A stretch of 50,050 nt of DNA from a virus: positions 1 through 50,050 of IMG/VR virus record IMGVR_UViG_3300033571_013263. One strand, given 5' to 3'. The notes under the pieces were generated by a model. That model did not search any database and was not told the DNA's origin. It was given only the letters and a program-made list of their open reading frames with translations. The translations under genes and the position numbers were made by a program. Numbering within the stretch: position 1 is the first letter of the stretch; every line of letters begins with the position of its first letter. Shown here one piece after another: positions 1 to 39,603 of the stretch.

Positions 1-449
1 GCCGTCGACGATTCCACCACACTCTTTACTTCAGTCTTTTTATTCAGTCTATTTATATCAGTCTTATTAGACTTCCCTGTGGGAAGTACCCCCACTTCCC
101 TGTGGGAAGTACTGCACTTCCCTACGGGAAGTGGGGCGCTTCCCTGTGGGAAGTGCCTATTGCGCTTCAAGATGTAATTTGTCGGGCCATTGTAAGTCTT
201 CTCGCGCTCAATCCATCCGGCATCTTCTAGCTCTCTGACAGCTTTGGCAATGGTTTTTGGCGTCCATCCTGTCCGATCCTGAATTACCTTATATGATGGA
301 AACGCCTTGCCTGTCTGTCCATTGGTGTATCGGCGCAGCAAGACAAACAACCAACGGCCTTGATCTGAGAGATCACCAGATGCGTCAATGAACTCGTTTG
401 GGATTGCGCTAAAGGCACCCCACTCGTCATGGATTCTGGTGTTGCTCAT
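1..449 (-). CDS. Winged-helix replication initiator-like protein (3' end cut by window)
   Basis: This frame is open from an ATG at 449 to the window edge (149 residues visible, no stop). Residues about 25-90 look like a helix-turn-helix replication or primosome-type domain: LSDQGRWLFVLLRRY, KAFPSYKVIQDRTGW, then a recognition-helix-like TPKTIAKAVRELEDAGWI. The ATG overlaps the upstream stop as ATGA and has AGGAGGTG six bases before it. After about residue 95 the protein becomes low-complexity, because the DNA there holds four near-identical palindromes (71-154) read in different frames. In lambda O and similar initiators the origin iterons also lie inside the initiator gene. An initiator role is inferred from fold, position and repeats; a transcriptional regulator is the alternative. 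Confidence 0.7.
   Translation of the reverse strand, partial: MSNTRIHDEWGAFSAIPNEFIDASGDLSDQGRWLFVLLRRYTNGQTGKAFPSYKVIQDRTGWTPKTIAKAVRELEDAGWIEREKTYNGPTNYILKRNRHFPQGSAPLPVGKCSTSHREVGVLPTGKSNKTDINRLNKKTEVKSVVESST
71..154. repeat. Four palindromic iterons inside the initiator gene; candidate origin
   Basis: Four 17-bp copies of ACTTCCCTGTGGGAAGT lie at 71-87, 94-110, 116-132 (TACG centre) and 138-154 (first base G). Each is an inverted repeat of CTTCCC/GGGAAG. Start-to-start spacing is 23, 22 and 22 bp, about two helical turns, so all copies face one side of the helix. The spacing is not a multiple of three, so the copies encode different peptides; conservation is therefore at the DNA level. 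Origin iterons bound by the initiator are the simplest reading; operator sites are the alternative. Confidence 0.75.
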
Positions 450-1713: not shown

Positions 1714-1795
1714 GGCAGGCGGCTGGAATTGAACCAGCGTCTGTCAGGTGCAACGCTGCTTCCCTGACCGTCGTTACCAGTTAGACCACGCCCAC
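1714..1795 (-). tRNA. tRNA-Ala(UGC)-like element with a 9-nt insertion in the anticodon loop
   Basis: Read on the minus strand, 1795-1714 folds as a cloverleaf. The acceptor stem is GTGGGCG/CGCCTGC (7 bp, including a G3:U70 wobble, the alanine identity element). The D arm is GTC/GAC with GG in the loop, the anticodon stem is GTCAG/CTGAC, and the T arm is GCTGG-TTCAATT-CCAGC. The 3' part of the anticodon loop reads G-U-UGC-A-C, as in tRNA-Ala, but nine extra bases (1763-1755) follow the 5' stem, giving a 16-nt loop. CCA is not encoded and the discriminator is C, not A. It may be a decayed tRNA, an att-derived fragment or a deliberate mimic. Confidence 0.45.
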
Positions 1796-4657: not shown

Positions 4658-5607
4658 GTAATACGTCACACTCGCTGGCAGTACAGTCAGCAGATGATCA
4701 GCTGGATCTGATCCGTAATACGTTTGCCAAAGGGGCGACGGAAGACGAGTTTCGTCTTTTTATCGAAGTCGCCAAGCGCAAAGGGCTGGATATCTTGTCA
4801 CGTCAGATCCACCTTGTGAAGCGGTGGGACAAGAAGACGGGCCGCGAGGTTTGCGAAATCCAGACTGGCATTGATGGTTATCGATTGATGGCCGAGCGAA
4901 CCGGCCGATACGAGGGCCAGTCAGGCCCGTACTGGTGCGGCCCGGACGGCCAGTGGGTCGATGTCTGGCTGGCAAATGAGCCACCACGTGCGGCAAAGAT
5001 CGGTGTCTGGCGAACTAACTGCCGTGAGCCATTTTGGGCGGTTGCACTGTATTCGGAGTATTGCCAGACGTATCAGGACAAAGCCACTGGCCAGCCGCGG
5101 CCTAATCCGATGTGGGCAAAGATGCCAGCCGCTCAATTGGCTAAATGCGCTGAAGCTCTGGCACTGCGCAAGGCATTTCCGTCAGAGATGAGCGGGATCT
5201 ATACGAGCGAGGAAATGGCACAGGCGTCCAACGTGATCGACGTCACGCCATCGTCACCAACGCCGTCGGCCCCGACTGAGCCGCTCGCTACACAGGAGCA
5301 GGTGACATACTTGGGCCATATTCTGGACGCCCTCAACGATCACGGGGTCGATGATCAGAAGCTGGTAACGGCCATCCGCAACATCACCCGCCAGCCGGAG
5401 ATCACGCTCGAGGCCGCGGATCTGCTCACCCTGTCCGGCACGATGCTGGACACCGTAATCGCCCGGCTGAATGCGCGGCTCGAAAAGATGGACGCCGACA
5501 AGGCCGCGCAGAGCTCACCCCCGGCCTCGCAGAGCCGAACTTACAAAGTCGCTCCGCATTATGCCGCATCGTCCTCAAACGACGTGGACGATATGATGTA
5601 TGACTAA
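4654..5607 (+). CDS. bet: Bet/RecT-family single-strand annealing protein
   Basis: 317 residues from ATG 4654 (AGGAG upstream). The N-terminal 190 residues match the Redbeta/RecT pattern: FRLFIEVAKRKGLDILSRQIHLVKRWDKKTG, QTGIDGYRLMAERTGRYEGQ, then MPAAQLAKCAEALALRKAFP. The family anneals complementary single strands during phage recombination and replication. The C-terminal part (from about 200) is proline/serine-rich followed by a helical segment, probably for partner contacts. I see no Exo/YqaJ nuclease next to it; a Gp157-family gene follows one gene later. Confidence in the family is high; the partner nuclease is not identified. Confidence 0.9.
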   Translation: MSNTSHSLAVQSADDQLDLIRNTFAKGATEDEFRLFIEVAKRKGLDILSRQIHLVKRWDKKTGREVCEIQTGIDGYRLMAERTGRYEGQSGPYWCGPDGQWVDVWLANEPPRAAKIGVWRTNCREPFWAVALYSEYCQTYQDKATGQPRPNPMWAKMPAAQLAKCAEALALRKAFPSEMSGIYTSEEMAQASNVIDVTPSSPTPSAPTEPLATQEQVTYLGHILDALNDHGVDDQKLVTAIRNITRQPEITLEAADLLTLSGTMLDTVIARLNARLEKMDADKAAQSSPPASQSRTYKVAPHYAASSSNDVDDMMYD

Positions 5608-5615
5608 CCAACCAC

Positions 5616-5637
5616 GCCGCCGGGGCAACTCGGCGGC
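5616..5637. other. Intergenic hairpin
   Basis: GCCGCCG (5616-5622) pairs with CGGCGGC (5631-5637) just behind the bet-like stop. There is no T tract, so it is a weak terminator or an mRNA-stabilising hairpin. Confidence 0.4.
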
Positions 5638-5660
5638 ATTACACACGGAGACTCGAACAA

Positions 5661-5894
5661 ATGAAAACAGCTCAATTCTCATCTTTGGGGAACGACTTGG
5701 CATGGAAGTATTTCGACGATGAAGACGGTCTCATTTTCTGGCATGGATATGACGATCGCAATTGGTGGCTCAAGGTGGCTAATACTGATCAGGCACGTCA
5801 GCGGATTGGATCGAAAACTGGTCGCGTCTTTCAGATCGACTTCCGTACACGTGTAGTCAATATCACGGATGGTAATCCAAAGGAGCAGAAGTAA
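5661..5894 (+). CDS. Hypothetical small protein between bet and gp157
   Basis: 77 residues. It is acidic and aromatic in the first half (LAWKYFDDEDGLIFWHGYDDRNWWLKV) and basic in the second, a possible small beta fold. The next gene starts directly after its stop (5894/5895), so the two are likely coupled. No known motif. The position inside the recombination cluster suggests a helper role, without direct evidence. Confidence 0.6.
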   Translation: MKTAQFSSLGNDLAWKYFDDEDGLIFWHGYDDRNWWLKVANTDQARQRIGSKTGRVFQIDFRTRVVNITDGNPKEQK

Positions 5895-6422
5895 ATGAGA
5901 ACGCTATTCAAGATCACAGAAGACTTGGACGCGCTGGCCGATATGCTGACTGAAGTCGGCGGCGAGATCAGCGACGATGAGCAGGGAGCAGCGCTGGAAG
6001 CCTGGTGGCAGGAGCTGGGTGAGGAGCGCGACCAGAAGATCGACAACTACTGCGCCCTGATCGAAGAGCTGAACCAGCGCGCGACTGTACGCGCCAACGA
6101 GTCGGAGCGGCTGGCCGATCTCGGTGCCGCTGACCAGAAGGCGGCTGATCGGCTCAAGCTGCGGCTGCGGGAGTTCCTAGCAGCGCAGGGAATCGAGAAG
6201 CTCAAGACCGACCGCTTCAACCTGACCGTCGCCAAGAATGGCGGCAAGGCTCCAATGACCATTCCGGATGAATGGCGCAACGAGCCCGCAGTGGCCCCGG
6301 AGCAGTACCATCGCCGGGTAATTCGGCTGGACGTTGATGCCATCCGCACAGATCTGGAGTCAGGTCAGGACGTGCCGGGATGCCGGATCGAGGAGCGCGG
6401 GACGCACCTGCGCATCAGATAA
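5895..6422 (+). CDS. Siphovirus Gp157-family protein
   Basis: 175 residues, close to the usual length of Gp157 proteins. It shows the family layout: an N-terminal acidic coiled-coil region (LDALADMLTEVGGEISDDEQGAALEAWWQEL), a central helical segment (LKLRLREFLAAQGIEKLKTDRFNLTV) and the C-terminal PDEWRNEP ... GCRIEERGTHLRIR. The family is common beside RecT/Bet genes in siphoviruses; a link to phage resistance in streptococci has been described, but the molecular role is unclear. The location next to the annealing protein fits that pattern. Confidence 0.85.
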   Translation: MRTLFKITEDLDALADMLTEVGGEISDDEQGAALEAWWQELGEERDQKIDNYCALIEELNQRATVRANESERLADLGAADQKAADRLKLRLREFLAAQGIEKLKTDRFNLTVAKNGGKAPMTIPDEWRNEPAVAPEQYHRRVIRLDVDAIRTDLESGQDVPGCRIEERGTHLRIR

Positions 6423-32027: not shown

Positions 32028-32385
32028 TTACGCATCGGTCGATCATATCGACGCAATGATGCGACGCGAGCGGCTGCATATCGAGCCGCATTACCGCATA
32101 TGGTCATATACGGTCGATGATGCCATTGTCAGCGTCGGCTGCCTGCGATTGATATCACCGCGTATTGTGCGACTGACCAGCGCATACACCCTGCCAGAGT
32201 ATCGTGGTCGTGGATATGGACTGGCGCTGCTGCATCATCGGATCGAGGTAATCGAGACCGATGCGGCATATCAGGGCATCAGGGTCATTGACGTATTTGC
32301 GCATTATCCGGCCTGGTTTATGCGGAACGGATTTACGCCCATCCGTCACACCAACTGGGCCATATACCTGCGACGTGCAAGATGA
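32011..32385 (+). CDS. GNAT-family acetyltransferase
   Basis: 124 residues from GTG 32011, chosen because AGGAGG lies four bases upstream; the ATG at 31966 has none. The GNAT acetyl-CoA-binding motif A is seen in LTSAYTLPEYRGRGYGLALLHHRIEV (R/Q-x-x-G-x-G/A as RGRGYG). Typical closing strands follow (IRVIDVFAHYPAWFMRNGFTPI). These enzymes move acetyl or related groups to amines on proteins, small molecules or, as in phage Mom-like proteins, modified bases. The link with the following PP-loop, ParB-fold and methyltransferase genes makes a DNA- or RNA-directed role possible, but the substrate is not shown. Confidence 0.75.
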   Translation: MISETDYASVDHIDAMMRRERLHIEPHYRIWSYTVDDAIVSVGCLRLISPRIVRLTSAYTLPEYRGRGYGLALLHHRIEVIETDAAYQGIRVIDVFAHYPAWFMRNGFTPIRHTNWAIYLRRAR

Positions 32386-33242
32386 TCTATATCGGCGATC
32401 ACAACAAGACGGCCATTATTGACGCATACCGGCAGGACAACGGCATCAGGCGCGTCATCATACTGAGCCCGCAGAAGTTCGCTCTTATCATCAACGATGT
32501 CGAGATGGTCGAGTATGCGGAGATTATTCAGTACAAGCATTTTTACCGACTACTACAAGAGATTGACCAGTCCACACTGCTGGTCATCAACGAGTGCCTG
32601 CGCACTCAGAACCGATTCGATCTGACATATAACTGCATCCGGCACTTCCTCAATCAGACCTCTCACCAGCTAATCTTCCAGCGATTACCGATTAGCGATA
32701 CGATTGATGATTTTATGACGCTCTTTGACTGGGACACTCGCAGTCAATGGCGTCGCGAGTCGTTCAGTCGCGACGTCCTGACCGCTGCCAGGATCGTCTG
32801 TAATCCGGTCGAGATCCGCATCAGGCCAGTCAGGGTCGAGACGACCGCAGCACAGAAGGCGGCGTATCAAGCCGAGAAGCGCCGCCTGATTGACGGCATC
32901 GGCCTGCGGGATCCGCATACCATTCCGCGTAATCTGCACCTGATGGGCGGCAGGGCCAAGATGGCGGCAATAGTCGATGGGCGGTCCTATGTAGGACGGA
33001 ACGATCGGCTAAAGATCCCCGGAATGGCTACCTACAAAGAGACCACGTATCCCGCCGGACCGTATACGGCATTTGAGTTTTCGCACAACGTGATCGACTT
33101 TGCCGACGTCCTGACGCTGGCCGATCAGACGGAGATTGATGCTTTGGTCACTGACCTGAAGGTCGATGAGTGGTATTTGCAGAGATATCAGGCATGGGCA
33201 GGGAGGGTGAGCAATGTTTGCACAGCGATATCACAAGGATAA
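32382..33242 (+). CDS. Unknown 286-residue protein of the modification-like operon
   Basis: ATG 32382 overlaps the GNAT stop (ATGA) and the end overlaps the IbrA-like gene by 29 bases. I recognise no family. The first 100 residues alternate strands and helices (RRVIILSPQKFALIINDVEMV, TLLVINECLRTQ); the LLVINE segment has the shape of a degenerate Walker B, but no Walker A is present. The second half is basic with K/R-rich parts (AAYQAEKRRLIDGIGL, GGRAKMAAIVDGRSY) and an acidic end. It could be a decayed ATPase or a partner for the nucleic acid handled by the operon. Functionally open. Confidence 0.6.
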   Translation: MIYIGDHNKTAIIDAYRQDNGIRRVIILSPQKFALIINDVEMVEYAEIIQYKHFYRLLQEIDQSTLLVINECLRTQNRFDLTYNCIRHFLNQTSHQLIFQRLPISDTIDDFMTLFDWDTRSQWRRESFSRDVLTAARIVCNPVEIRIRPVRVETTAAQKAAYQAEKRRLIDGIGLRDPHTIPRNLHLMGGRAKMAAIVDGRSYVGRNDRLKIPGMATYKETTYPAGPYTAFEFSHNVIDFADVLTLADQTEIDALVTDLKVDEWYLQRYQAWAGRVSNVCTAISQG

Positions 33243-34344
33243 GACCGTGCTGGACGCAGCGCGTGAGCGCGTGTCGTTCGTCTTCGACCAGTTTGAGACA
33301 ATCACCGTGTCAGTATCCGGCGGCAAGGATTCGACCGTGCTGGCTCATCTGGCAATGGTCGAGGCGCATCGTCGCGGGCGGAAGATCAATCTCTTCTTCC
33401 TCGACGAAGAGGCGATGTATCAGAGCAGCATCGATCAGATTGAATATCTCATGGATCTATATCCTGAGAATGTCAACAAGCTTTGGGTGCAGATCGAATT
33501 CCGACTCACGAATGCAACCAGCTTTGACGAGGGTCAGCTGATCTGCTGGGAAGCAGGCAAGCACAAGGAATGGATGCGATCGAAGAAGGCATACGCAATC
33601 CAGCATCGCATGTGGTCGCTTGAGGCACAGACCGTGCGCGACCGAAACAAGGGCTTTGGCTTTTATGATGCCATTGAGAACTTTGAGCGCTGCTACACCA
33701 ATACCGCCTTCCTGGTCGGTCTGCGCGCTGCCGGGGAGTCGCCGAATCGATGGCGCGCGGTGGTTAAGAACCCGATCAGCGTCAATGGCCACCGCATCTT
33801 CTGGGGCAGTCCAAAGGGCAACAACTTTTCCCTCTATCCGATCTACGACTGGAACACATCGGATGTCTGGCGATACATCTATGACGAGAAGCTGCGCTAT
33901 AGCAAGATCTACGATTTCCAGCTGAAGAAGGGCTATCCGCTGAATGAGATGCGCGTATCGTCACTGATCCACGAGCGGAGCTTTAAGAGCCTTTGCGACC
34001 TACCCGAGTTTGAGCCAAAGACCTACGTCAGACTATGCAAGCGCATCAAGGGCATTGCTCTCGCTCAGGAGACGGGCAAGAATGCCAAGCTGTTCCGGGC
34101 TCGCAAGCTGCCCAAGAATTTTAAGTCGTGGGTCGCCTACCGCGACTTCCTGTTGCAGACATACCCTGACCCATCGAAGAAAGACATCTTTGTGAGGCGC
34201 TTCGATCGCCAGCTCAATAATGAATACGTCGCGCGTCAGCAGTGTCGACAGCTGATCTGCAATGACTACGAGAACAACCTGTCGATTGACAGCAAGCCGG
34301 ATCCACGCGAAGAGCTGATCAAGTATTACGAGGAGGTACTGTGA
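33214..34344 (+). CDS. PAPS reductase-family (DUF3440/IbrA-like) PP-loop protein
   Basis: 376 residues, the usual IbrA length. The PP-loop SGGKDS (35-40) binds ATP. Further features are FLDEEAMYQSSIDQIEYLMDLY, FLVGLRAAGESPNRWRAV and the long helical C-terminus ending in VARQQCRQLICNDYENN. PP-loop ATPases of this type adenylate a substrate, often for sulfur or amine transfer; DndC and CysH are relatives. IbrA was described with IbrB as a regulator of immunoglobulin-binding proteins in E. coli, with unknown chemistry. Here the IbrB-like gene follows with a GTGA overlap and a methyltransferase after that, which points to nucleic acid modification or regulation; that is inference. Confidence 0.85.
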   Translation: MFAQRYHKDKTVLDAARERVSFVFDQFETITVSVSGGKDSTVLAHLAMVEAHRRGRKINLFFLDEEAMYQSSIDQIEYLMDLYPENVNKLWVQIEFRLTNATSFDEGQLICWEAGKHKEWMRSKKAYAIQHRMWSLEAQTVRDRNKGFGFYDAIENFERCYTNTAFLVGLRAAGESPNRWRAVVKNPISVNGHRIFWGSPKGNNFSLYPIYDWNTSDVWRYIYDEKLRYSKIYDFQLKKGYPLNEMRVSSLIHERSFKSLCDLPEFEPKTYVRLCKRIKGIALAQETGKNAKLFRARKLPKNFKSWVAYRDFLLQTYPDPSKKDIFVRRFDRQLNNEYVARQQCRQLICNDYENNLSIDSKPDPREELIKYYEEVL

Positions 34345-34853
34345 AGCCAGAGATTACATTCCCCTGCCTGACCACGCGACTTGTTGCGCGCGATCTGGTT
34401 GTGGCAAACAACTACAATCCCAACTCGGTTCCACCAGACAAGATGGAGCTGCTGCGCCAGTCGATCATCGACAACGGATTCTGTTTTCCGATTGTCACAA
34501 TATGGGATGCAGATCAGGAGCGTTACGTCATCATCGACGGCTTTCACCGCTGGACGATCTGTCAGTCAGAGTGGCTTGATATCCCGGAGATTCCAATCGT
34601 CGTTCTGACGCACGATATATCAGCGCGAATGATTGCCACCAAGCAATTCAACGCCGCGCGTGGCTTTCACCAGGTCGACCTTGATGCTGATCTTGTGCGA
34701 TCGCTGATTGAGCAGGGAGTATCGGAAGAGGAGATCGGGCAGCGATTGCAGATGGATATGGAGACGATCCACCGGTATAAACAATTAACCGGTATTGCTG
34801 AGTTATTCAAGAATGCCGCCTATTCAACGGCGTGGTCGATGGAGGAGATCTAA
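34341..34853 (+). CDS. ParB-fold IbrB-like protein
   Basis: 170 residues from GTG 34341 (GAGGAGG upstream, GTGA overlap with the previous stop). The ParB/sulfiredoxin fold is shown by NYNPNSVPPDKMELLRQSIIDNGFCFPIVT, then IDGFHRW (DGFHR at 66-70), and a C-terminal helix-turn-helix-like part (VSEEEIGQRLQMDMETIHRYKQLTGI). IbrB pairs with IbrA in the same order in other genomes. ParB-fold proteins can bind nucleotides, and the HTH part can bind DNA. It probably gives the PP-loop partner its DNA specificity; this is inferred. Confidence 0.85.
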   Translation: MKPEITFPCLTTRLVARDLVVANNYNPNSVPPDKMELLRQSIIDNGFCFPIVTIWDADQERYVIIDGFHRWTICQSEWLDIPEIPIVVLTHDISARMIATKQFNAARGFHQVDLDADLVRSLIEQGVSEEEIGQRLQMDMETIHRYKQLTGIAELFKNAAYSTAWSMEEI

Positions 34854-35569
34854 TGAAGTGGGAATACGGAGAAGCGTATAAGCGGCACGATATGGCTGGC
34901 GAGATTCGCTTGCCAAATGACAGCGTAGTTCAGGTGTGCGATTGGACCGCTGAGATGCCCGACTTTATGCGGCGCGCGGATACCATCTTTGTCGATCCGC
35001 CCTGGAATATGGGCAACGTGCGCACCTTCTACACCAAAGCGGAGAAAGATCGACCGGGGATGGATTTTCTCGCCTTCTCTGATCATCTCTGGCGGCGATT
35101 GGATGATATCCGCCCGGCAACGCTCTTTGTCGAGATGGGCAAGGAATACCTAGCTGACTACCTGATGGCGGCAAAAGAGCGCTATAGATACGTGACCTTT
35201 TACAACTCCACCTACTATCGACGGCGCGAGAATAAGTGCTACGTGATCCACGCAACCAACGATTTCCAGACTCGCCGATATGCCGAGCTTGAGGACAAGG
35301 ACGAGGCCGAGATCATCGCCTGGGTGGCGGCTAATCACCGGTACGGCTGCATTGGTGATCTCTGTATGGGACAGGGCTTGATCGGTAAGCGCGCATACGA
35401 TAACGGCCGGTCATTTGTCGGTACCGAGCTGAATTACAAGCGGCTGGCCGTGCTGGTCGATTACATTGCCATCAGGGAGCGTATGCGACAACCTATGTGT
35501 ACCGCTGAAGCTCCGGGAACTCCAGAATCATCACCCGCCACAGATTCGGGAAGCGTTGCTTCATCTTGA
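34853..35569 (+). CDS. Beta-class (DPPW) DNA adenine/cytosine-N4 methyltransferase
   Basis: 238 residues from ATG 34853 (GGAGG upstream, TAATG overlap). Catalytic motif IV DPPW (48-51, FVDPPWNMGN) comes first, and the SAM-binding motif I follows late (GDLCMGQGLIGKRAYDNGRSFVGTELN); this order marks the beta class, N6-adenine or N4-cytosine. The length fits a bare catalytic domain without a large target recognition domain. No restriction enzyme gene accompanies it. The last 77 bases overlap, tail-to-tail, with the end of the CysH-like gene on the other strand. It could protect phage DNA or complete the IbrA/IbrB-based modification. Confidence 0.8.
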   Translation: MKWEYGEAYKRHDMAGEIRLPNDSVVQVCDWTAEMPDFMRRADTIFVDPPWNMGNVRTFYTKAEKDRPGMDFLAFSDHLWRRLDDIRPATLFVEMGKEYLADYLMAAKERYRYVTFYNSTYYRRRENKCYVIHATNDFQTRRYAELEDKDEAEIIAWVAANHRYGCIGDLCMGQGLIGKRAYDNGRSFVGTELNYKRLAVLVDYIAIRERMRQPMCTAEAPGTPESSPATDSGSVASS

Positions 35570-36296
35570 CGATGCGGCCCATATTGAGCGCGCTGGTCCC
35601 GATCGGCGGACCATTGCGGATCTCATTGCGATCGATATCATACATTGCCGGGTAGGGTATGGCGTGCAGGTCGATATAGGCCCATATCTCCTGCTTGGTC
35701 CAATGCGCGACGGGTGAGCATACAGCCTGCCCGTCGCCTTTTCGCGTGTAGACCATACCGCGCGAGTTGAGCAGGATCTGTCGGTGCCGCCCCTCACCCT
35801 TGTGCCGCAATCCCCAGACATAGCCACGCATTTGCGCTGATGCCTGATATCGCCGGATAGGTGCATACATCAGCGCCTCATTTAGTGCCTGATCATCACG
35901 GCCATCCATTGCCGATGCCGTCGGTATACCGTGCTGACGGTACCAGTCATAGAGCGTGACGTCAGGTGTCAGCTCGACCAGCGGCAAGCCGCCAGCCACC
36001 ATCTGATCCTTGAGCGCAAGGCAGTCCGGCCATTCAGCCAGCGGCCCCTGATTCACCCACATTGCAGGATGATCGGGATAAGCGCGCCGCATCAAGTGAT
36101 CAGCGACCAGCGAATCAGCCCCAAAGGATACTGCCGAATAGAAGCGGCCCATTGTCAGATCTGCAAGCTGCTCGATGCTGGCCAGTGCGCGTGACGCCAG
36201 CTTGTCGATCTGACGGCGATAGGGAGCAGCGACAGCAGGCCTTCCTACTGCCACCGCTCCCCTGATACCGTAATCAGCCCAGTCCTTGACGCTCAT
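35493..36296 (-). CDS. cysH: CysH-like PP-loop protein of a type IV-B CRISPR-Cas locus
   Basis: 267 residues from ATG 36296, which overlaps the csf3 stop (ATGA). The PP-loop appears as SFGADS (57-62, SxGxDS type), followed by DHLMRRAYPDHPAMWVNQGPLAEWPDC. The C-terminal half has the PAPS-reductase pattern YVWGLRHKGEGRHRQILLNSRGMVY ... VAHWTKQEIWAYIDLHAIPYPAMYD. A CysH-like gene is the accepted ancillary gene of type IV-B systems; its job there is unknown. It lacks the C-terminal ECGxH of true PAPS reductases, so sulfate reduction is unlikely. It is last in the operon and convergent with a methyltransferase. Confidence 0.82.
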   Translation of the reverse strand: MSVKDWADYGIRGAVAVGRPAVAAPYRRQIDKLASRALASIEQLADLTMGRFYSAVSFGADSLVADHLMRRAYPDHPAMWVNQGPLAEWPDCLALKDQMVAGGLPLVELTPDVTLYDWYRQHGIPTASAMDGRDDQALNEALMYAPIRRYQASAQMRGYVWGLRHKGEGRHRQILLNSRGMVYTRKGDGQAVCSPVAHWTKQEIWAYIDLHAIPYPAMYDIDRNEIRNGPPIGTSALNMGRIVKMKQRFPNLWRVMILEFPELQRYT

Positions 36297-37018
36297 AGAA
36301 TGCTGGCCACGGACGAGGGAATGCACGGCAGCCACGTTTCGCGCAACCAGTAAGGGGGAGTCCACCCTTGGCGCGTGCCAATCTGCCAGCCGGGATCCGT
36401 GATCGGTACGGGTCGAAGAGTGCGGCCATCGGGCAGGTAGAAGCTGAAGTCGTGAATGACCTCGACCTGCCAGTCACGGACTACGCCCTGACCGCGCTTA
36501 CCACCCTTGCCGAAGTGCCGCATCAGACCGAGCAGGCGCCTGACCTCATCCGGATTGCCGACGCATGTTGCCGACCACGACTCGGCCACAAAGCGCCGCT
36601 CCGGTACACGGTAGTCCATATATGGCCCGGCAGAAGAACTAGGATATCGGCGCGGTCGCTTCTGGTCGAGAGTCCGGATCAGTCCCTGCATTGCGTAGGG
36701 ATTGTCTGCCGTGCGACGGTGAATATGCGTCATCGACTTGGTGAGATGCGACGGAATGAAATCCGTACTGGCCCATAGCGGCAGACCGCCGATGCGCCGA
36801 ATGTAGTCGAGAGGCAATGGCTGCCAGAACGGGCCAGCCCCCTGCGGGAATGGCCGTCCTTTTAGCGCGTCCGTGACCATTGCATATGCCAGCACGCCAT
36901 CGAGCGCAACCGGATCATTGCAGCTCACTGCGGTGTCAGTCCGGACGGTGACGCGGAGCGGCAGGTGGGTCAGCTCCCCGATCCGCACGCCGTAGTCGTC
37001 AAATTCCGGGATATGCAT
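36293..37018 (-). CDS. csf3: Csf3 (Cas5-like) type IV subunit
   Basis: 241 residues from ATG 37018, which overlaps the csf2 stop by one base (TGATG); an ATG at 37030 is possible. Family features: an N-terminal RAMP strand with NDPVALDGVLAYAMV (LDG at 39-41), a middle HxR region (RRFVAESWSATCVG), and the glycine-rich loop GKGGKRGQGVV near 170-180, which Csf3/Cas5 proteins show as GKKRSQGxGxV. In type IV complexes Csf3 caps the 5' handle of the crRNA. The confidence comes from these motifs together with the neighbours. Confidence 0.85.
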   Translation of the reverse strand: MHIPEFDDYGVRIGELTHLPLRVTVRTDTAVSCNDPVALDGVLAYAMVTDALKGRPFPQGAGPFWQPLPLDYIRRIGGLPLWASTDFIPSHLTKSMTHIHRRTADNPYAMQGLIRTLDQKRPRRYPSSSAGPYMDYRVPERRFVAESWSATCVGNPDEVRRLLGLMRHFGKGGKRGQGVVRDWQVEVIHDFSFYLPDGRTLRPVPITDPGWQIGTRQGWTPPYWLRETWLPCIPSSVASIL

Positions 37019-38439
37019 CAGGCTCCACATAAGACGGCCTCCGTCCCAAAGGTGGCGTCAATCAGCCCTTGTCGGAGTCGATCCCGATGCTCGGCCAGGT
37101 ATGATAGATATTCAGCGGCCAATGCCTGACGGACGTCGTTCCTGTAATGCTCCGCAATGAAGCCAGAATGCCCCTGAGCGGATTTTGCGCCCAGAGTGCC
37201 ACCTGACCCCTGCCAATCGTCGATAGCCTGCATTACAGCGCCAATGGTGAGATCGCTGGTATATGGCTGGAAGCTGACCTCGATCAGGATGGCGGTCTGT
37301 GCGGCCAGAGTCTCATAACTGAAGATCATCTGACCTGACTCCTTGTCCTTGCCGCCAATGCCAGACCTTGTGCGCGTCACCTCACTGACCAGATCGAAGA
37401 TCGACACATCGGATGTGTACTGTCCGTCAGTCTTGGATGCCGTAATCCAGTTGTTTTCCCGGCATACGATCCACGATGCAACCGATACGTTTGAGCGCGT
37501 CAGCAGGAACTGATCGAAGGATCCACCCAATGCATCAATGAACGGGTAATTGCGCCTGACGACTGCCTCATAGAGATCACAAGCGCCCGGTGCCCTCGCT
37601 CCTTTAACCGTATTGCCGCCAGAGTACAGGAAGCGCTCGACCGCGATTGGCACGATCTCACGATCCGGGGTCAGTCCGAGCTCGGTCAGCAGCCTGGTAG
37701 CACCCGGCGCGCGGAGCAGGTTGTGACGGATCGAATTGCCGGAGATGGCTGGTATGCGCACGGCCAGCATCCTGCCATCATTTGCGCCGAGCTGCCGAAC
37801 TTGTTCCTCGGTCGCCTCATAGATCACGCCCTCCTCGGTATCGCGATCGACAGCCTCGGCATATCGCCAGCTGGTGGTCTTCATTCCGTCGGCAATGAAG
37901 CGCGCCCCCATTACGATCATCTCCGGAGCCCGCAAGGTTGCGGCCAAAGCAGCAGATTGAAGGAATGGCGGCAGTGAGAACAAGGCCAGCAGCGGCGGAT
38001 GCCATCCGGATCCCGGAGGGGAGAGGGAGAGCTTGCGGCTCACGTATGCCCACGCCGTCGGCAGGGTCGAGCAGCAGGTTGCCGCATCGACCAGACGAGT
38101 CGTGAGGTATTGATACCGCTCGGCACCGGCAAACAGCCCTTCGCCTTCGCCGCGGTAGATCATGGGGAATTGTGATGCAAAGATCACGGCCAACAGCTCG
38201 CCGCCGGTCAGGGTTGTCAGGAACTCCACGGACGATGCTGGCACCAATGCGACACGCAGCAGCTGGTCGATGGACGCCTGAACGTCAACGTCGGAAGCGC
38301 TGATCTGCTCGCGGTTGAGCAGGGCCAGTTCGCGAGCAAAGAGCGTTGTGTTGTTTGGCCCGGTCGAGTTCACTCCGGCCTCGCCGTGAGCGATGCTTTG
38401 CGTTGCGCGTACAACGAATCGATATGGTTGCGTTTTCAC
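37018..38439 (-). CDS. csf2: Csf2 (Cas7-like backbone) type IV subunit
   Basis: 473 residues from GTG 38439 (AAAGGG upstream; GTGA overlap with csf1). It has Cas7/RAMP features: an N-terminal strand YRFVVRATQSIAHGEAGV, the central AVRIPAISGNSIRHNLLRAPGATRLL (the SGNSxRxxLR element of Csf2/Cas7), GGNTVKGARAPGACDLYEAVV and the C-terminal SGGTLGAKSAQGHSGF loop. In type IV complexes several copies polymerise along the guide RNA. It is longer than many Csf2 proteins (about 330-350), with extra sequence at both ends and in the middle. The function in an array-less system is unsettled. Confidence 0.85.
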   Translation of the reverse strand: MKTQPYRFVVRATQSIAHGEAGVNSTGPNNTTLFARELALLNREQISASDVDVQASIDQLLRVALVPASSVEFLTTLTGGELLAVIFASQFPMIYRGEGEGLFAGAERYQYLTTRLVDAATCCSTLPTAWAYVSRKLSLSPPGSGWHPPLLALFSLPPFLQSAALAATLRAPEMIVMGARFIADGMKTTSWRYAEAVDRDTEEGVIYEATEEQVRQLGANDGRMLAVRIPAISGNSIRHNLLRAPGATRLLTELGLTPDREIVPIAVERFLYSGGNTVKGARAPGACDLYEAVVRRNYPFIDALGGSFDQFLLTRSNVSVASWIVCRENNWITASKTDGQYTSDVSIFDLVSEVTRTRSGIGGKDKESGQMIFSYETLAAQTAILIEVSFQPYTSDLTIGAVMQAIDDWQGSGGTLGAKSAQGHSGFIAEHYRNDVRQALAAEYLSYLAEHRDRLRQGLIDATFGTEAVLCGA

Positions 38440-39125
38440 GTTGTTGATGCCCTTTCTGTTTTCTGCGCCATTATCAGCGCGGTGATGAATTCAGCCGATC
38501 CCCGGATGGCGGCAAGATCCCGCTCCAGAATCGACGTTGCTTGAATGCCGACAGCTTGCACTTGCTTGTGGCTGGAATAGAGACTCTGCTCAATGGCAGG
38601 CTTTGAGAATCCGGCATCATAGGCCTGCTCGATCAGGCCGAGGGCGGCCAGTTGCCGGTCAAGGTCGATGGTGACATTCTGCGATAACCCGCGACTGGGA
38701 TCGTGGACATAGATCCACGCCGTCGGCCCCTGGCTGATACGGGCAAATGGCCAGACTCGCTTCTTTGGATCCGTAGTCAGGATCATTACCCGCGGCACGT
38801 CCCGCCGTAATGCGCGGATGGCACGTCCCCAGGTCGGTCGTTCTTCGGTCGCGCTCTCGTTTGAGATCACGGGGAACAGGACCTGCTCCGGCGTGGCCAA
38901 TATGGCTCGATGATACTTCTTCGGCTCACGCCAGATCGACGAGCAGAAGCGGCAGACGTGCGGGTGATGAAAGTCGAAGATAGACGTCAGATTGGCTGAT
39001 GTCGGGGTCAGCAGATCATTGCGGTGATAATGCGTATCTCCATAATCGCCGCAGATAGAGCAATACCCGGAGAGGCTGCCAGATGGCGCGTCCGGGTATA
39101 TCAGGCGTGCAATAGTGACGTTCAT
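38436..39125 (-). CDS. csf1: Csf1 (Cas8-like, zinc-finger) type IV subunit
   Basis: 229 residues from ATG 39125 (GGAGG eight bases upstream). Cysteines 22, 25, 58 and 61 (CSIC ... CRFC) form the zinc finger typical of Csf1, followed by WREPKKYHRAILATPEQVLFPVIS, a hallmark of the family. The C-terminal about 90 residues are helical (RQLAALGLIEQAYDAGFSKPAIEQSLYSS; ATSILERDLAAIRGSAEFI). Type IV-B loci usually have a separate cas11 between csf1 and csf2; here csf1 and csf2 overlap by four bases, so Cas11 is absent, fused into this helical end or made from an internal start. First gene of the operon with its own promoter. Confidence 0.85.
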   Translation of the reverse strand: MNVTIARLIYPDAPSGSLSGYCSICGDYGDTHYHRNDLLTPTSANLTSIFDFHHPHVCRFCSSIWREPKKYHRAILATPEQVLFPVISNESATEERPTWGRAIRALRRDVPRVMILTTDPKKRVWPFARISQGPTAWIYVHDPSRGLSQNVTIDLDRQLAALGLIEQAYDAGFSKPAIEQSLYSSHKQVQAVGIQATSILERDLAAIRGSAEFITALIMAQKTERASTT

Positions 39126-39163: not shown

Positions 39164-39192
39164 AGTATACCACTGCGGCTTTATTGCGTCAG
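39164..39192 (-). promoter_or_regulatory. csf1: Promoter of the csf operon
   Basis: On the minus strand, CTGACG (-35-like), a 17-bp spacer and TGGTATACT (39172-39164), an extended -10 identical in its nine bases to the one at 1704-1696. The csf1 ATG lies 39 bases downstream. The csf operon can thus be expressed without the late operon. Confidence 0.65.
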
Positions 39193-39603
39193 TATTTTGT
39201 GCTCTTGCAAAACGGCCTGAATCTGATGTGTGATCGTACCGATCGCTTCACAGAGTCGCTCTTCGTCCGGATCCGTTTCAGTCGCATCAGCCGCCGAGTC
39301 TATGACGAGTCCCATCTTGCGTGCCCATTGTAGAGCGGCGTGAGTGGCCTCGTGGCTGATCGTATCCGGGCCAAGATGGCGCCGCGAGAAGTGCACCTCA
39401 CCCAGGCAATACCGCCGAGGGCGATCAGACGAGTTGACTGGCCAGAGGACGCAGGCTATCACGCTTCGCCAGTCAGCGGCGTGGGGCCTGACATACTCGC
39501 GCATCGATGCCACGGTGGGCCATACATAGACATCGTAATGCCAGCGACGGCCTTCCGGGTAGACTCGAAAGGTCAGGATGCCGTGTTGCTCGCGCTTGCT
39601 CAA
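39181..39603 (-). CDS. Phage HEXXH metallopeptidase-like protein
   Basis: 140 residues from TTG 39603 (GGAGCCATC upstream). HEATH at 84-88 (DTISHEATHAALQWARK) is a zinc-peptidase motif, and a downstream DEERLCEAIGTITHQI could give the third ligand (Glu). Similar short HEXXH proteins with 'HEATHAAxxWA...EERxCEAxG' are frequent in phage accessory regions; their target is unknown. The csf1 promoter lies at its 3' end. It is in the same direction as the csf operon and the phosphoesterase upstream. Confidence 0.7.
   Translation of the reverse strand: MSKREQHGILTFRVYPEGRRWHYDVYVWPTVASMREYVRPHAADWRSVIACVLWPVNSSDRPRRYCLGEVHFSRRHLGPDTISHEATHAALQWARKMGLVIDSAADATETDPDEERLCEAIGTITHQIQAVLQEHKILTQ

Follow-up and report, generated by a model that had tools for sequence, protein, structure and literature searches.

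Type IV-B CRISPR-Cas systems are enigmatic. In the solved IV-B complex of Mycobacterium sp. JS623, Cas7 and Cas11 form a double filament that binds heterogeneous RNA of regular length, and the complex displays no preference for crRNAs, loading mostly non-crRNA (PMC7937560). CasCysH has been described as a PP-loop protein without a C-terminal Cys (PMC8175902), and type IV-A acts by nuclease-free repression (PMC11656645). Phage- and virus-borne IV-B systems as such are already known (PMC10848311; PMC11656645); the Skermania phage SPI1 likewise carries one (locus L022).

The locus considered here lies in a window of 50,050 nucleotides (positions 1 to 50,050 of IMG/VR virus record IMGVR_UViG_3300033571_013263, a tailed phage). 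An earlier note on this DNA, made from the letters alone, had called the locus a type IV-B operon; the phage-borne type IV effector csf1-csf2-csf3-cysH stands, but the operon is not a canonical IV-B, because cas11 is nested in csf2 rather than being a separate gene. It is therefore classed as a type IV-B variant that is new and carried by phages.

A four-gene type IV operon in a tailed phage

The operon runs on the minus strand from position 39125 to 35493 and comprises csf1, csf2 (cas7), csf3 (cas5) and a cysH-like gene, so that the IV-B core genes csf1, csf2 and csf3 are all present in the window (Table 1). The gene coordinates, the strand and the overlaps of 4, 1 and 4 bases agree with those given before, as do all of the motifs named at that time (KKYHRAILATPE, SGNSIR, LDG, GKGGKRGQG and the PP-loop). 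HMM searches returned profile matches far above chance for all four genes, including the PAPS-reductase fold at 3e-11 for the fourth. All four genes are intact, and comparison with a 95%-identical contig shows purifying selection on the operon, dN/dS being 0.05-0.10 for csf2, csf3 and cysH.

Table 1. Operon features by window position.
Feature	Position	Strand	Basis or remark
csf1 (Cas8-like, 229 aa, Cys4 zinc finger)	38436..39125	-	PADLOC typeIV_Cas8 3e-9; RBS and ATG
csf2 (Cas7-like, 473 aa, nested Cas11 domain, GTG start)	37018..38439	-	typeIV_Cas7 6e-29 over residues 226-459
Asn29 of Csf2	38353..38355	-	at the position that Asp42, putatively catalytic, occupies in Csf2 of Mycobacterium sp. 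JS623
Cas11 domain inside csf2 (residues ~46-224; Cas11-like core residues ~70-199 = 37843-38232)	37768..38304	-	hhalign, HMMs, AF2
csf3 (Cas5-like, 241 aa)	36293..37018	-	PADLOC typeIV_Cas5 2e-27
cysH-like (CasCysH, PP-loop protein, 267 aa)	35493..36296	-	PAPS_reduct 2.6e-11; motif SFGADS; without C-terminal reductase Cys

The csf1 gene begins with an ATG preceded by GAGGAGG, and the zinc finger of its product is of the Cys4 type, with C22, C25, C58 and C61 invariant across 8 relatives. Csf3 additionally matched TIGR03116 (cas5_csf3) at 6e-11, under the cut-off of that model. In the CysH-like protein the PP-loop reads SFGADS, and the pattern S-x-G-x-D-S is invariant in an alignment of 16 CysH-like proteins. 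The protein does not fit the CysH (PAPS reductase) enzymes, which have a C-terminal catalytic Cys: the alignment places no Cys near the C terminus in the window or in close phage relatives, in agreement with the description of CasCysH, and the score against the NCBIfam cysH model was far under its cut-off.

The absence of an array and of adaptation genes, given in the earlier note as a trait of type IV-B, was borne out by array scans of the window and by a Cas1 search, all of which were empty. No CRISPR array was found in any contig read (the window and its relatives), and the candidate arrays and mini-arrays in these contigs were rejected, their repeats being short or lying within long open frames. 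No cas1 was found in a metagenome-assembled genome with a near-identical copy of the operon either, this genome being incomplete. The window has no cas6, and a scan of the operon genes and of neighbouring genes found no dinG. In one relative (L009), a strong Cas6 (PF09559, 4e-43) is encoded between csf3 and cysH.

A Cas11 domain nested in Csf2

Within Csf2, a helical insert of approximately 180 amino acids occupies one hairpin turn of Cas7. This domain had previously been missed, and with it the apparently absent cas11 was found within csf2. The Csf2 protein matched the IV-B Csf2 profile in hhalign (probability 99.6, E 3e-24), and a structure comparison of its AlphaFold model returned type IV-A Csf2 as the best PDB matches, the full-length model being moderate (pLDDT 71, pTM 0.55).

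The insert is homologous to IV-B Cas11 according to profile-profile comparison, HMM searches and structural superposition, and the Cas11 small subunit does belong to the operon, as a domain within Csf2. In hhalign, the insert aligned to IV-B Cas11 with a probability of 90% and P 1.7e-6, scoring 43.7 against a maximum of 17.4 in 150 shuffles; an earlier hhalign comparison scored 35.4, with 0 of 600 shuffles above 22. Reciprocal HMM searches matched in both directions, with no other match up to E 1 among the open reading frames of 35 loci. PADLOC matches of the relatives' inserts were to type IV Cas11 models only (down to 4e-5); none was obtained with the insert of the window itself. The AF2 model of the insert reached a pLDDT of 85.5, and Cas11 of 7JHY was by far its best-superposing PDB match. 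When PDB sequences were searched with a profile of the insert, the sole match was weak and of the kind expected by chance (E 0.38), and a structure library of viral proteins contained no convincing match. No separate cas11 was found in the window, where csf1 extends 4 bp into csf2 and the Cas11 HMM matches no other open reading frame.

The insert could instead be an unrelated helical domain in a phage that simply lost cas11, as might be argued from the Foldseek E-value of 5.1 (not significant alone), from a length exceeding that of most separate Cas11s and from the archaeal Cas11 subset, whose signal on its own was not above shuffles. This explanation was rejected on the hhalign, shuffle, PADLOC and reciprocal HMM evidence and is also opposed by the complementary presence and absence of fused and separate Cas11; it is regarded as highly improbable.

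Asn29 of Csf2 was paired by eye with Asp42 of JS623 (7JHY Csf2 VGSDTFTLFRREK versus window TGPNNTTLFARE), and it is invariant across 8 aligned sequences.

Distribution and genomic setting

Each of the 10 full-length relatives aligned, which belong to several groups of phages, encodes the fused Csf2, and a separate cas11 was seen in none; an HMM search for a separate cas11 in the fused contigs examined gave no match. A separate cas11 gene is present in each of the 11 unfused IV-B loci read (L011-L015, L017-L022). The fused design is common to a family of otherwise different phages. In the Csf2 tree, for which the references included one IV-A and no IV-C sequence, the fused sequences form a monophyletic, highly divergent clade. 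Its Csf2 core groups tentatively with archaeal IV-B, with only 82/88 support, and its very long branch is similar in length to the IV-A branch. With tblastn, Csf2 matched Actinarchaeum as the only plasmid, and a search of deposited phages with two fused Csf2 proteins gave no match.

The proposal that the operon stands in an accessory island with its own promoter was only partly right as to the island. The promoter is not supported: a scan found 5 sites versus 5.6 expected, with no excess over shuffles; furthermore, the operon of relative G005 is tightly packed within the head-gene block and runs in the same direction (terL-exo-orf148-csf1-csf2-csf3-cysH-glucosyltransferase-like-portal-scaffold-capsid), between the terminase/exonuclease and portal genes. 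An early counter-defence role fits poorly with this placement in a late block. The same arrangement would suit a domesticated ribonucleoprotein with a non-immune role late in infection, such as the control of late transcripts or packaging. In G001, however, operon and head genes point in opposite directions, and in the divergent phages G003, G004, L064 and L065 the operon sits among other genes; a late role of this kind is judged improbable.

Modification-type genes adjoin several operons: a methyltransferase (MTase) in the window, L009 and L011, a glucosyltransferase-like gene in L024, and DUF3440-ParB in the window, L003 and L011-L013. The segment 33214-35569 of the window has the same gene kinds (DUF3440 PP-loop, ParB, MTase) as occur beside the operons of haloarchaeal plasmids. 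DUF3440-ParB-MTase occurs in the window, L003 and three haloarchaeal plasmids but was rejected as an obligate partner; the link is loose at most, because ParB was not found in G002-G005 and because DUF3440 and ParB are common in plasmids and phages generally, also without IV-B. Additionally, orf286 was considered as a homologue of a haloarchaeal 261-aa gene and rejected for lack of similarity.

Proposed function and comparison with known systems

The operon probably encodes an array-less IV-B-like effector in which Cas11 is inserted in Csf2, RNA is supplied in trans and the CysH-like protein acts on the bound nucleic acid. A single Csf2 polypeptide would form the "backbone" as well as the "belly" filament that surround the RNA, with Csf3 (Cas5) capping the 5' end and Csf1, through its zinc finger, serving as the large subunit. 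Binding of a target without cleavage is predicted because there is no nuclease and because Asn replaces the putative catalytic Asp. CasCysH may then act by ATP alpha-hydrolysis, an adenylation-type chemistry. Since the window phage has neither array nor cas6, the RNA would have to come in trans, most likely as host or other crRNA-like small RNAs, and the phage may turn such captured guides on competitors or take them away from host defence. Action against competitors or the borrowing of host guides, as the earlier note envisaged, is a possible role with some support from the relative that has cas6 in its operon.

How far the bound RNA acts as a guide separates two further explanations. The complex could silence or modify other mobile elements in a guide-dependent way, using host crRNAs for an IV-A-like transcription block, with CysH as the modifying enzyme. 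The Cas6 of L009, the nuclease-free repression of type IV-A (PMC11656645) and the modification-type genes beside several operons are consistent with this explanation; the lack of an array in the contigs read, the lack of cas1 in the incomplete metagenome-assembled genome and the frequent occurrence of phage and plasmid DUF3440/ParB without IV-B argue against it, and it is entertained tentatively. Alternatively, the complex could be an RNA sponge that coats small RNAs without sequence choice, starves host RNA-guided defences and recognises no target. The solved complex makes guide use less likely and favours a sponge, carrying mostly non-crRNA (PMC7937560), and the absence of array and cas1 and the Asn at the Asp42 position point the same way. 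A sponge does not account for why CysH, Csf3 and the zinc finger of Csf1 are kept, nor for the cas6 within one operon, and is considered somewhat unlikely. A broader reading is doubtful: the family would be a distinct and largely phage-dedicated type IV subtype whose nested Cas7-Cas11 backbone employs guides acquired in trans, with cas6 assisting in some members, to bring a CysH-type PP-loop enzyme to target nucleic acid, for RNA-guided modification rather than cutting.

The preferred array-less effector resembles the JS623 IV-B complex (PDB 7JHY; PMC7937560) in comprising Csf1, Csf2, Csf3, Cas11 and a CysH-like protein with no array, adaptation genes or nuclease. It differs in its nested Cas11, its very divergent Csf2 core, its Asn in place of Asp42 and its location on a phage rather than a megaplasmid. 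Skermania phage SPI1 (KR011061), an isolate, carries csf1-cas11-csf2-csf3-cysH, an operon that its annotation does not identify as IV-B, but its cas11 is separate (137 aa) and its csf2 product has 339 aa. The viral IV-B of "Fuxiviridae" (PMC10848311) is likewise a csf1, csf2, csf3 and cysH-like operon in a tailed virus; theirs is an archaeal virus with a mini-array and all typical effector-module components, for which a separate Cas11 tree was built. The haloarchaeal plasmid systems (Actinarchaeum, Natrinema and Halomontanus; L011-L013) share the nearby DUF3440 PP-loop and ParB genes (with MTase in L011), whereas their cas11 is separate and their Csf2 has approximately 294 aa. Type IV-A identity was rejected, as the window has neither cas6 nor array and the operon genes and scanned neighbours include no dinG. 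Among these systems, the fused family is a minimal form, comprising three Csf proteins and CysH in phages, with members with or without cas6. The fused subunit would fix the Cas7:Cas11 ratio at 1:1, and assembly, RNA content and CysH recruitment are therefore directly testable with four genes.

No description of a type IV Cas7-Cas11 fusion was found in the accessible part of the 2025 classification (PMC12669027) or in the portions of other literature searched. Type III-E/III-I Cas7-11 proteins (PMC12669027) similarly unite Cas7 with Cas11 in one chain, but several Cas7 domains and one Cas11 are strung together there, while here a single Cas7 of type IV carries Cas11 in a hairpin turn; with only one Cas7 domain in Csf2, III-E/III-I identity was rejected. 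The type IV fusion indicates a route other than that of III-E/III-I, namely the entry of Cas11 into a loop within one Cas7.

A conserved phage operon and its surroundings

The window contains terminase, portal, scaffold, major capsid and tape-measure genes, and within this 50,050-bp virus record the four overlapping genes described in the earlier note were recovered as a single operon. The identities proposed there were upheld by profile searches, in which genes 1 to 4 matched typeIV_Cas8/Csf1 (3e-9), typeIV_Cas7/Csf2 (6e-29), typeIV_Cas5/Csf3 (2e-27) and PAPS_reduct (2.6e-11), respectively. In the NCBIfam search, Csf3 matched at 6e-11, under the cut-off, and genes 1 and 2 had no match; the proteins are therefore divergent. 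The Cys4 set of Csf1 is invariant, and dN/dS against a 95%-identical MAG contig (L010) is of the purifying type (csf2, 0.055; csf3, 0.052; cysH, 0.10), with too few changes in csf1 for an estimate. The csf operon of the window is a real, conserved phage operon and is maintained. The strongly uneven dS across positions 35493-39125 in the same comparison (0.006 in csf1, 0.25 in csf3) suggests recent recombination between close phages.

Features of the window and of compared contigs
Sequence	Coordinates	Strand	Feature
window	71-154		22-nt unit, palindromic core CTTCCCTGTGGGAAG, repeated in tandem ~3.8 times; close to record end
window	1714-1795	-	tRNA match in Rfam, 37 bits; absent from ARAGORN output
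window	32382-35569	+	orf286, DUF3440 PP-loop protein (IbrA-like), ParB-like protein, DPPW-motif methyltransferase; convergent to csf operon
window	39125-35493	-	csf1-csf2-csf3-cysH operon; four genes, successive overlaps 4, 1, 4 bases
window	39181-39603	-	140-aa protein immediately upstream of csf1; HEATH (HExxH-like) motif
L009 (relative)	5605-6228		strong Cas6 gene, PF09559 4e-43, between csf3 and cysH
L022 (Skermania phage SPI1)	4828-8461		whole classic IV-B operon csf1-cas11-csf2-csf3-cysH; isolated phage, annotated only as hypothetical proteins
L024	10870-11439		gene within or after csf operon; matches phrog_854 glucosyltransferase, 5e-10
L051 (MAG contig C18)	2326-5058		second, different DUF3440+ParB pair; same MAG as the near-identical phage contig
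L065 (relative)	8909-9532		gene within or after csf operon; protein glycosyltransferase-like, by eye only

In the compared contig G005, terL, exo, orf148 (a homologue of window orf140), csf1, csf2, csf3, cysH, a glucosyltransferase-like gene, portal, scaffold and capsid follow one another co-directionally, making expression of the csf operon along with the late genes plausible. The HEATH-motif protein is kept beside an exonuclease-like gene in G005 and in a further contig, G001. In the window, the convergent set stands between the csf operon and portal. DUF3440 and ParB genes also lie near IV-B operons in phage L003 and three haloarchaeal plasmids (L011-L013); the same trio occurs in part of a Fusobacterium plasmid (L053) where no csf genes are near, and 571 plasmids and 215 phages encode a relative of the DUF3440 protein. 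The link of this pair to IV-B is a lead, not a result.

A Cas11 domain nested in Csf2

Described IV-B operons comprise csf1, cas11, csf2, csf3 and a cysH-like gene (PMC8175902, PMC7937560). In the window, csf1 and csf2 overlap, leaving no space between them for cas11. Whereas IV-B Csf2 proteins measure 283-339 aa, the window Csf2 has 473 aa, with ~180 additional residues after the TLFxRE segment, and Cas7 profiles cover it only from residue ~220-226 onward. The insert falls at the GPDG turn of the Csf2 of Mycobacterium sp. JS623, the exact junction being read from alignments, and when modelled alone it forms a compact all-helical domain (pLDDT 85.5, pTM 0.85).

Aligned by hhalign with 11 IV-B Cas11 sequences, an insert profile of 8 sequences scored 35.4 (P 4e-5), with 600 column shuffles and two reversals all at or below 22; adding two more distant relatives gave 43.7 (probability 89.9%, P 1.7e-6; maximum of 150 shuffles, 17.4). 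This signal derives mostly from the actinobacterial Cas11 set, the archaeal subset alone scoring only 20, not above shuffles. PADLOC matched the inserts of four relatives exclusively to type IV Cas11 models (L064 at 3.9e-5, 8.2e-5 and 4.5e-4; L065 at 0.0046; L003 at 0.012; L009 at 0.05), and the window's own insert, taken singly, had no PADLOC match. Reciprocally, when the ORFs from 35 loci were searched with an HMM built on separate Cas11s, the only matches beyond true Cas11s were fused-Csf2 inserts (best 7.6e-4), and the insert HMM recovered separate Cas11s (best 2.4e-5). Among 47 PDB matches in Foldseek, Cas11 of the JS623 complex (7JHY) had the top TM-scores (0.38 by query, 0.45 by target; E-values not significant) and the sole low rmsd, 4.8 A against at least 11 A for the others. 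The reference set was itself checked, a five-member profile matching 7JHY Cas11 at 1e-13. Finally, cas11 is its own gene in 11/11 unfused IV-B loci examined and in none of the fused loci, whose ORFs were searched with the Cas11 HMM. From these alignments, model matches and complementary presence and absence, the inserted segment is Cas11, and by gene content the operon is read as a type IV-B system of a new form, in which Cas7 carries Cas11 within it.

Relatives and phylogenetic placement

Related operons were located in contigs from IMG/VR and in a single contig of a MAG, with Csf2 identities to the window spanning 99% to 30%; 50,697 deposited phage records queried with two of the Csf2 proteins held no related operon, and the sole plasmid match was a distant, unfused haloarchaeal locus. 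Head genes are common to G005, G001 and the window, a few window genes recur in G002, and the capsid of G003/G004 is 29-30% identical to the window's; L009 has the operon alone in common, among window genes compared. The order csf1-csf2-csf3-cysH is found in the window, G001, G005 and L064, csf1-csf2-csf3-cas6-cysH in L009, and csf1-csf2-cysH-csf3, with or without extra genes, in L006, L007 and L065.

In the Cas7-core tree, the fused forms make a single clade with 100/100 support, whose branch is 3.05 changes per column long and which groups with Actinarchaeum and Thermococcus IV-B at 82/88; the only IV-A reference has a branch of 3.62. Given the long branch of the clade, the 82/88 support and the single IV-A reference, the fused forms are placed in IV-B provisionally, by gene content; by sequence they are very divergent.

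RNA source and proposed mechanism

No CRISPR array was found in the window, nor did the contigs examined from its relatives, including the 17-kb L009 contig, contain one; the incomplete MAG to which the near-identical phage contig belongs showed no cas1. Since cas6 is also restricted to L009 among loci compared, the RNA would be supplied in trans or be unspecific. The complex may take guides in trans, a reading favoured by the cas6-bearing relative, or act as a sponge that binds RNA unspecifically, for which the RNA published as bound by the JS623 complex speaks; the two carry about equal weight.

In JS623, a Csf2-Cas11 double filament assembles on heterogeneous RNA of ~55-60 nt, with Cas11 at the Csf2-Csf2 interface (PMC7937560). 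Fusion would set the Cas7:Cas11 ratio at 1:1 and tether the belly to the backbone. Asn29 of the window Csf2, aligned by eye, takes the place of the putative catalytic Asp42 of JS623, making cleavage of target RNA by the window complex unlikely. The CasCysH of the window has the PP-loop S-x-G-x-D-S without the C-terminal reductase Cys, which points to ATP alpha-hydrolysis as its putative chemistry and is the same as the general description of CasCysH (PMC8175902).
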